DNA of 64,000 nucleotides from Rhodopseudomonas palustris (GTDB taxonomy: Bacteria > Pseudomonadota > Alphaproteobacteria > Rhizobiales > Xanthobacteraceae), in assembly GCF_007005445.1 (NCBI RefSeq), contig NZ_CP041387.1:3373001-3437000 (forward strand), in the 5' to 3' direction. The notes under the pieces are model-generated. The model saw only the letters and a program-made list of their open reading frames with translations, made no database searches and was not told the DNA's origin. The translations under genes were made by a program, and so were the position numbers. Below, piece by piece: positions 28,576-29,958 of this stretch (position 1 is its first letter; the number at the start of each line of letters is the position of its first letter).

Positions 28576-28613
28576 AGGCGATCGATCAGGGACGCCTCAT
28601 TCCACCCTACACC

Positions 28614-28655
28614 GTCATTCCGGGGCGCGAGCGCCAGCTCGTGAACCCGGAATCT
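28614..28655. repeat. Palindromic repeat, family A, left half split by IS110
   Basis: GTCATTCCGGGGCGCG...GAACCCGGAATCT. The matching right unit lies at 29897-29937, on the far side of the IS110 element. In intact copies (25124-25222, 34538-34634) the two units are separated by only about 20 bases. Confidence 0.85.
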
Positions 28656-28668
28656 ACCGTGTCTCCTG

Positions 28669-29649
28669 TCAAGTCAGTGATGCGCCTTTCCAGGGCTGTC
28701 CGGACCTCAGAACAGCATTGGCGAACACGACGAGCCGGCGGAGCACAGCGATGAGTGCAACCTTCACTGGCTTGCCGTCGGCGATCAGGCGTTCGTAGAA
28801 CGGTCGCAGGATTTTATTGTGCCGGCTGGCGGCGACGGCCGCCATGTAGAGGATGTGTCGGACGGCCGCACGGCCGCCGCGGATGCGGGCCGGAGCGGTC
28901 ATCGTACCGCTTTGGCGAACGAACGGCGCCACGCCGACCAGCGCTGCGGCGGCCTTGTTGTCGACGCGGCCGAGCTCGGGCACCATGGCGATCAGGGTCA
29001 TCGCCGAGGTGACGCCGATGCCTTTGATGGTGGTGAGCAGGCGTTGGGCCGCGACCAGGTCGGCGCTCTGGCGGAGCAGGGTCTGCATCCTCTGCTGGAG
29101 TGATTTGTCTTCGGCCCGAAGCATGTCGAGGTGCTGCTCGATCGCCTGCCGGATCTCGGCGAGCCGCGTCGTCGCCAGCCGGCAACTCTCGGCGTGGATC
29201 ATCTGTTTGAGCTGGTCGCGGCGGCTGGCGCATTCATGAAGCGCCTCCCGGACCGGATTTTCCTCGAGTTCGACGTGATCGGGCTTGCGGCCTCGGATTT
29301 CGTCGGGGCTCGCCGCATATGCCGCGAGCAGGCGCGCGTCCGACGTATCCGATTTGGCGTTCTGGCCGATCAGCGTGCGATAGGCTGCGAACCGCGACGT
29401 GTGCACGATCTCGACCGGCAGACCCGCTTGGCGCAGCGCCTTGACCAGCGGCTTCTCATAGCCGCCGGTCGGTTCGACCGCGATCCGCGTCAACTGCGGC
29501 CCGGCGCCAAGACGCTGAACCAGCTCTGAGATCGCGTCCGGGCGGTTCGCGTAATGAGCGCGACCGCCTCGATGCCATGCCACGTCGAGGCTCGCGCCGC
29601 CGACGTCGATGCCGATGAAGATGTTGTCCGACGAAGAGGAGGCTGTCAT
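28669..29649 (-). CDS. IS110 family transposase (DEDD recombinase)
   Basis: A 326-residue IS110-type recombinase. The N-terminal RuvC-like DEDD domain starts IFIGIDVGGASLDVAWH, with further acidic positions in VEPTGGYE and KSDTSDARLLAAYA. A coiled middle follows, then the C-terminal Transposase_20 domain (LTTIKGIGVTSAMTLIAMVPELG... ALVGVAPFVRQSG... GRAAVRHILYMAAVAASRHN) carrying the catalytic Ser region SGTM. ATG 29649 is chosen because homologues begin just before the GIDV motif; GGGAC lies upstream. The frame is intact, so the element may be active. Confidence 0.92.
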   Translation of the reverse strand: MTASSSSDNIFIGIDVGGASLDVAWHRGGRAHYANRPDAISELVQRLGAGPQLTRIAVEPTGGYEKPLVKALRQAGLPVEIVHTSRFAAYRTLIGQNAKSDTSDARLLAAYAASPDEIRGRKPDHVELEENPVREALHECASRRDQLKQMIHAESCRLATTRLAEIRQAIEQHLDMLRAEDKSLQQRMQTLLRQSADLVAAQRLLTTIKGIGVTSAMTLIAMVPELGRVDNKAAAALVGVAPFVRQSGTMTAPARIRGGRAAVRHILYMAAVAASRHNKILRPFYERLIADGKPVKVALIAVLRRLVVFANAVLRSGQPWKGASLT

Positions 29650-29885
29650 GATGTCCCTGCCTTGTTCCACGAGGCAAGGCCGGCGCCTGGATCGTCTATC
29701 GTGCGGCCAGCACTTACTACCGTCCGGGTGTCCGGCCTTTTCGACCAAACGAGGCGGGGAACGAGATTCCGACGGTCGCCAACGACCTTCCCGAGAACTC
29801 GTTACGCCCGCCCCGATGACCTCTTAGACTATCCCGAGGTCACCCGAGACTTACGATCCCGCGGTTGTGGTGCACCCGGTTCGCT
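29650..29885 (-). ncRNA. Candidate IS110 bridge RNA region (5' non-coding end)
   Basis: This 236-base stretch lies upstream of the transposase and has no coding potential. In IS621-type IS110 elements this end encodes the bridge RNA that pairs with target and donor DNA. A perfect -35-like TTGACA lies in the opposite end of the element (28667-28672, minus strand). It would point into this region in a circular form, as in the known mechanism; I could not identify a matching -10. Exact RNA limits and loops are not assigned. Confidence 0.4.
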
Positions 29886-29896
29886 TCAATATCTCC

Positions 29897-29937
29897 AGAT
29901 TCCGGGTTCGCTCGCTTCGCGAGCGCCCCGGAATGAC
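29897..29937. repeat. Palindromic repeat, family A, right half split by IS110
   Basis: AGATTCCGGGTTCG, CTCGCTTCGCGAG, CGCCCCGGAATGAC. It is the inverse partner of 28614-28655. Confidence 0.85.
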
Positions 29938-29958
29938 GGGGGCTCTTTTGATATGCAA

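Follow-up and report, generated by a model that had tools for sequence, protein, structure and literature searches.

The closest described system to the element reported here is IS621 of Escherichia coli, which uses a bridge RNA, targets a REP palindrome and carries a promoter split between its two ends (PMC11208160, PMC11208158). That bridge RNAs exist and covary with their targets is already known (PMC11208160), and seekRNA has been reported as well (PMC11187229). The core of IS621 and related orthologues is CT, with a nearly invariant T in the second position. As described in the seekRNA report, the IS1111 group has subterminal inverted repeats and an RNA region downstream of the transposase (PMC11187229). 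Insertion into REP sequences has been recorded for ISRm19 of Sinorhizobium meliloti, an IS110-family element (4 of 4 copies), for ISPpu9 and ISPpu10 of Pseudomonas putida, which share one common REP family (7 of 7 copies each), and for ISPa11 (6 of 6 copies) (PMC1525189). In alphaproteobacteria, CGTC-tagged REPs form inverse dimers and have been reported in R. palustris (PMC3733652).

We analysed a 64,000-nucleotide stretch of a Rhodopseudomonas palustris genome (the window), which holds an intact IS110 element of 1201 bp, or 1204 bp when one copy of the overlap is counted, with its transposase on the minus strand and situated between two converging genes. As the initial annotation had described, two inverse palindrome units flank this element of about 1.2 kb; we place them at 28613-28654 and 29897-29938. 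The features of the insertion are as follows.

28655..29855, minus strand: IS110 element proper, 1201 bp, from copy comparison and loci without the element
28652..28654, minus strand: 3-bp overlap GAT (ATC on the plus strand) at the right end of the element, containing the core dinucleotide
29856..29858, minus strand: 3-bp overlap GAT (ATC on the plus strand) at the left end of the element, from copy comparison and loci without the element
28613..28654, plus strand: left palindrome (REP) unit, its inner edge being the target, from sequence and family counts
29859..29896, no strand: host spacer between the two units, resembling the spacer of orthologues that lack the element
29897..29938, minus strand: partner palindrome unit in inverse orientation, from sequence
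28669..29649, minus strand: transposase/recombinase, 326 aa, from Pfam PF01548 and PF02371 and IS621 homology

The transposase matched PF01548 with E 6.3e-14 and PF02371 with E 2.4e-18. The IS621 recombinase structure (8wt6_A) was matched with E 5e-30 over query residues 10-320, and ISCro4 was the next structure match (E 8.9e-30). Alignment to IS621 placed the DEDD residues at D15, E59, D101 and D104 and a serine, S247, in the Tnp domain; the protein has the IS110-family combination of a DEDD RuvC-like domain with a Transposase_20 domain bearing the conserved serine. A protein search scored 7999 candidates, 436 of which were relatives at E 1e-60; these relatives are protein records without DNA. 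The organisation of the element is also that of the IS110 family: a long non-coding left end of 206 bp precedes the ATG of the transposase, a short right end of 14 bp follows the stop, and insertion is site-specific with a short shared core, the overlap being GAT and the site the same in all five complete copies. The IS1111 group was ruled out, since the RNA region lies upstream of the transposase and only 14 bp follow it. Among the best 25 of 34 inverted repeats, none was a terminal inverted repeat of the element; those located at its ends are host palindromes.

The overlap GAT was obtained by aligning the window copy with a second copy and with loci that lack the element. The same alignments ruled out the CT dinucleotides that had been proposed as junctions. 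They also moved the boundary previously placed at 29884-29894 to 29855-29858, as 29859-29896 is host spacer in orthologues without the element; the insertion separates this spacer from the left palindrome unit. The distance of about 20 bases given for the units of a pair needs revision as well: it is about 38 bp at the window locus, and intact pairs elsewhere, searched with a pattern that allowed 5 to 60 bp between units, vary widely.

Among 391 genomes drawn from the family, the element was found by DNA in four: this genome (two copies), G108 (two), G231 (one) and G230 (one, cut by a contig end). The second copy in this genome, at G000:4516889-4518211, is identical to the window copy over 1203 bp and differs outside the element. 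These two are the full-length copies in this genome among the matches listed, which included no further stretch of the element body. The two G108 copies are mutually identical over 1202 bp. Identity of copies within each of these two genomes indicates recent movement. All five complete copies lie at one base of the palindrome in a single orientation, at distinct loci with distinct flanks, as the initial annotation had anticipated for further copies. In each, the right end abuts GATTCCGGGTTC and the left end follows CGG, with CGGGA to the left of the insertion and GATTCC to its right, and the sequence beyond differs. The flanks of the G231 copy match those of L057 (labelled Rhodopseudomonas palustris). 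On contig 47 of G231 (L052), a near-identical repeated stretch lies on both sides of the palindrome module that surrounds the element, as if this module had undergone tandem duplication. An order-level search at E 1e-70 gave hits in one of 397 genomes, namely this one, and no relatives were detected among plasmids (E 1e-60) or viral contigs. Matches to query 1267-1350 (for example G000:3691063) were considered as left-end remnants and rejected, as L004 and L027 show inter-palindrome spacers instead.

The left flank of the window element was present in 10 of 16 same-genus genomes searched, one being this genome. In five of the nine others (L066-L070) the palindrome pair is present with point changes and the element is absent. 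The target edge is intact in L067, L068 and L069, has one base changed in L066 (GGACTC) and has diverged in L070; the partner units at loci without the element also bear point changes. L067 reads ...CCCGGAATC/CCGCG..., and L068 and L069 read ...CCCGGAATCT/CG.... The last two have A, not G, before GATTCC (CGAGATTCC), which leaves the base present at the window locus before insertion uncertain. In L071-L074 the match covers the gene only, and no palindrome was found within 160 bases after the flank match. The five orthologous loci with the pair indicate that both units were adjacent before insertion, which agrees with the empty site that had been expected.

The palindrome is abundant in the 5.04-Mb genome. 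We counted 276 edges of the form RGATTCCGGG (142 forward and 134 reverse; the pattern read backwards gave 0) and, by a strict pattern, 216 whole units (110 and 106; control 0). Both copies in this genome occupy the same base of such an edge, more than chance would give. The unit begins with CGTC followed by AT and makes inverse dimers, which fits the text on CGTC REPs; the likeness lies in that start, the inverse dimers and the occurrence in R. palustris (PMC3733652). The CGTC-3 sub-family was compared by text only, and the present loop seems to exceed the 5 bp reported in that account of CGTC REPs (PMC3733652).

The left end of the element is predicted to specify a bridge RNA. Its fold gave z-scores of -4.02 and -3.82, with 0 of 200 shuffles as good in each case, and a consensus fold of five sequences shows a 5' stem-loop followed by target and donor loops; its RNA covariation is slight (6 of 58 pairs, term +0.56). 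Rfam searched at the gathering threshold over the whole window returned no match. The predicted features are listed below.

29676..29842, minus strand: predicted bridge RNA (5' stem-loop, target loop, donor loop), from the fold, ends approximate
29751..29814, minus strand: predicted target-binding loop and stem, from the consensus fold
29789..29797, minus strand: putative left target guide TTCTCGGGA, from the guide-target match
29765..29771, minus strand: putative right target guide CGGAATC, from the guide-target match
29717..29724, minus strand: putative left donor guide GACGGTAG, placed by eye, 7/8 to the right end CACGGTAG, layout after PMC11208158
29690..29698, minus strand: putative right donor guide TAGACGATC, placed by eye, layout after PMC11208158
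29848..29853, minus strand: TAAGTC, candidate -10 half of the joint promoter, from the 17-bp spacing in the circle
28667..28672, minus strand: other half of the candidate joint promoter TTGACA-17-TAAGTC, from sequence

The target loop carries TTCTCGGGA on its 5' arm and CGGAATC on its 3' arm, and under the IS621 rule these guides would address TTCTCGG-GA-TTCCG (PMC11208160, PMC11208158). The five sites read ACCGCGG, ATCTCGG, AGCGCGG, ATCTCGG and TCTTCGG, each followed by GA-TTCCG, and the guides scored 13, 15, 13, 15 and 14 of 16 at them, respectively; the left guide matches the window's own site at 6 of 9 positions. When the position is left free, scores of at least 13, 14 and 15 are reached by 3.2%, 0.32% and 0.025% of window 14-mers. 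Such scores are not rare, and the weight of the match comes from the use of the same place in the RNA by all lineages. The guide-derived 13-mer TCTCGGGATTCCG occurs genome-wide 15 times exactly and 66 times in total at no more than one mismatch (control, 1). Over the 64-kb window, the best palindrome edge for the composite guide (a single one) has 3 mismatches and a non-palindrome site has 2; the reversed control reached 3 mismatches at best, at two sites. For the donor side, TAGACGATC would pair discontiguously, nine-for-seven as in IS621, with GATCGTA of the left end, as read by eye. Joining the two ends creates TTGACA-17 bp-TAAGTC, a candidate promoter by its sequence, of which the -10 poorly matches TATAAT; the 17-bp spacing was also read by eye at the joints of OWN2, G775, G893 and G886. 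The predicted left-end RNA has two loops, one for the target and one for the donor, each with a guide on either arm. These data bear out two expectations of the initial annotation: the element appears to target the dispersed palindrome, as all five complete copies lie at the same position and the guides spell the palindrome edge, and its RNA is predicted to hold the corresponding guide, with TTCTCGGGA and CGGAATC in a loop placed as in IS621.

The overlap GAT permits a core of GA, without the T, or of AT, in which the T is kept. GA is favoured and AT is possible, whereas CT is excluded by the sequence of the ends. GA agrees with the register of both target guides. AT agrees with the 13-bp core-to-TTGACA position in four other lineages (read by eye) and with the reported preference of IS621 for T in second place. 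The right donor guide fits GA better in the window copy and AT better in the Tardiphaga and Bradyrhizobium copies.

Compared with IS621, the window element has a recombinase that aligns over residues 10-320 with the DEDD residues and serine in place, a predicted left-end RNA in which a 5' stem-loop is likewise followed by target and donor loops, a target guide on either arm, a nine-for-seven right donor guide, a candidate split promoter and a REP target. It differs in its core (GA or AT here, CT in IS621), in its right target guide, which matches 7 bases here and is given as 4 for IS621, and in its target, the edge of an alphaproteobacterial palindrome. ISRm19 resembles it, by description only, as an alphaproteobacterial IS110 element in REPs (PMC1525189).

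Like ISPpu9 and ISPpu10, two IS110-family elements of one genome on one REP family, a second IS110 lineage shares the palindrome in this genome; those two insert at the same position, whereas the two lineages here lie 3-4 bp apart and have different cores. The genome has eight Transposase_20 loci, of which two are the window element and three are one other IS110. The copies of this second lineage, at 3000210, 3638084 and 1627448 (L138, L139 and L140; G000:2999200-3001400, 3637000-3639400 and 1626500-1628800), are all inside the same palindrome, 3-4 bp deeper, with the left end after AGATTCC, the right end before GGGTTC and CC as the core. Their guides, GTAGATTCC and AACCCGG, match 14 of 16 positions at each of the three sites. 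The composite guide of this lineage, GTAGATTCCGGGTT, has zero mismatches at window 28644-28657 (minus strand), the joint between the element's right end and the palindrome. This match is probably chance (two bases); if used, it would invite nested insertion. The genome also has three single IS110-type loci by the Transposase_20 profile: L141, L142 and L143 (G000:3192400-3194800, 2235400-2237800 and 974400-976700).

Relatives at 72-84% protein identity come from Tardiphaga (L058) and Bradyrhizobium Ec3.3 (L059-L061 and L063). Another right guide, CGGGATC, was read in L058 and L063; because the sequences of L059-L061 start within the element, the L063 guide was assumed for them. GATCCCG is present in 4 of 4 right flanks (L058-L061), three of which are palindromes and one of which, L061, is not. 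At this non-palindromic end site (L061:1-700), one frame stays open for 48 codons past the joint, and the right guide matches 7/7. The left guides of these relatives differ too (TTACGGGA and TTTATGGGA). The one long left flank, from L063 at a contig end with Ns, ends in GGTTATGGG, one base out of register.

Multi-copy IS110s at about 32-41% identity, together with the window lineage and the second lineage of this genome, made up 20 lineages. In a fixed-window test of nine lineages, the own guide averaged 13.3 of 16 and other guides 5.7, with off-diagonal pairs that include some lineages with a common target; the window guides averaged 14.0 against their own targets and never exceeded 3 against those of another lineage. 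One of 200000 permutations, possibly the true order itself, reached the observed sum, a figure that is optimistic because guide windows were picked by eye to match their own target. The spacing of the two guide windows, which was not chosen, was 26 in 7 of 9 lineages and 27 and 28 in the others. The left window of the G849/G774/G189 group is possibly one base out of register, and the G140 targets were located imperfectly (10.8/16). Left out of the test were G886 and G349 (near G893), G910, G307 and G805 (near G849), G155 (left boundary unclear), G122 (two candidate cores and a low swap-test score), G789, G816, G360 and G330, and loci L155, L156 and L157. In an unconstrained swap test of 16 lineages, the own RNA came first in 6, two of them tied; this test is weak, as the free position search inflates all scores and the true right end of OWN2 lay outside its range. 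The fixed-window test, which followed it, suggests that guides and targets change together in nine IS110 lineages, with the guide windows set by eye. Two groups of sites were seen besides. Bradyrhizobium-genus (g25) lineages G775, G893, G886 and G349 (L144-L154 and L158-L165) lie in a repeated site CCTCATC-CT-GAGG, which the guides of G775 and G893 match. Other IS110 lineages (L170-L185, L209-L211 and L215-L217) lie at TGGGTCC sites, where the right guides GAGCCGG and GATCCGG tend to accompany the targets GGCTC and GGATC, respectively, as if a slight alteration of the guide had tracked the target.

The window therefore very probably holds an intact, recently moved element of the IS110 group, with a guide-RNA region upstream of its transposase and addressed to the REP edge. 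This reading is sequence-based and draws on the exact site, the same site in five complete copies, the guide-target match, the IS621-like fold and the donor guides. By homology with IS621, the element would leave as a circle whose joined ends would form a promoter, and its left end would be transcribed into the bridge RNA. The target loop would pair with the inner edge of the REP unit (TCTCGG-GA-TTCCG), the donor loop would pair with the circle joint, and strand exchange by the DEDD/serine recombinase would take place at a dinucleotide inside GAT. Many landing sites would be available, the address being that of a high-copy repeat.

It is very improbable, in our judgement, that the palindrome is recognised directly by the transposase through its hairpin or cruciform shape, with the guide match as a by-product. 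All five complete copies do lie in palindromes, and palindrome-targeting elements are reported in other families, namely ISPsy8 (IS3) and ISRm22 (IS4) (PMC1525189). However, CGGGA/GATTCC recurs in 5 of 5 insertions although just 57 of 276 edges, counted in this one genome, read CGGGATTCCGGG, which supports guided targeting; one of three Ec3.3 right flanks, that of L061, is non-palindromic and yet matches the Ec3.3 right guide 7/7, and targets change together with guides across lineages. Spread of copies by homologous recombination between palindromes, without guided insertion, would profit from repeats that are high-copy and similar, but the five sites have no more than CGGGAT in common at the left end, the flanks beyond differ in 5 of 5 and the joint is found again in other genomes, and we regard this route as very improbable. 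Least credible of all is that the palindromes belong to the element as its ends and travel with it as long inverted repeats, in a REPtron-like unit. Inverse units flank the element in the manner of terminal repeats; against this, the element is identical between copies of one genome whereas the flanking palindromes and spacers differ, and the five orthologous loci that keep both units without the element nearly refute it.

We found no description of the window element in the open papers searched. REP targeting by IS110s and bridge RNAs are known already, and what the sequences appear to add is the window element and good natural evidence for guide re-addressing. The addressed insertion at the REP edge, our preferred reading, would test the bridge-RNA rule cleanly and in nature beyond its enterobacterial case, with orthologous loci that lack the element, recent copies that are identical, and relatives in which guide and target vary in parallel. 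The lineages supply pairs of guide and target ready for use, together with recombinases that seem able to use non-CT cores, and these bear on the reach of bridge-recombinase re-programming. For the family as a whole, we put forward tentatively, as a possibility falling a little short of even, that its IS110s form a guild whose bridge RNAs have repeatedly been re-addressed by point changes in the guides to the most numerous host palindrome; lineages in one genome may split registers, at the GA/AT edge and at CC 3-4 bp deeper, with the core re-written along with the guides.
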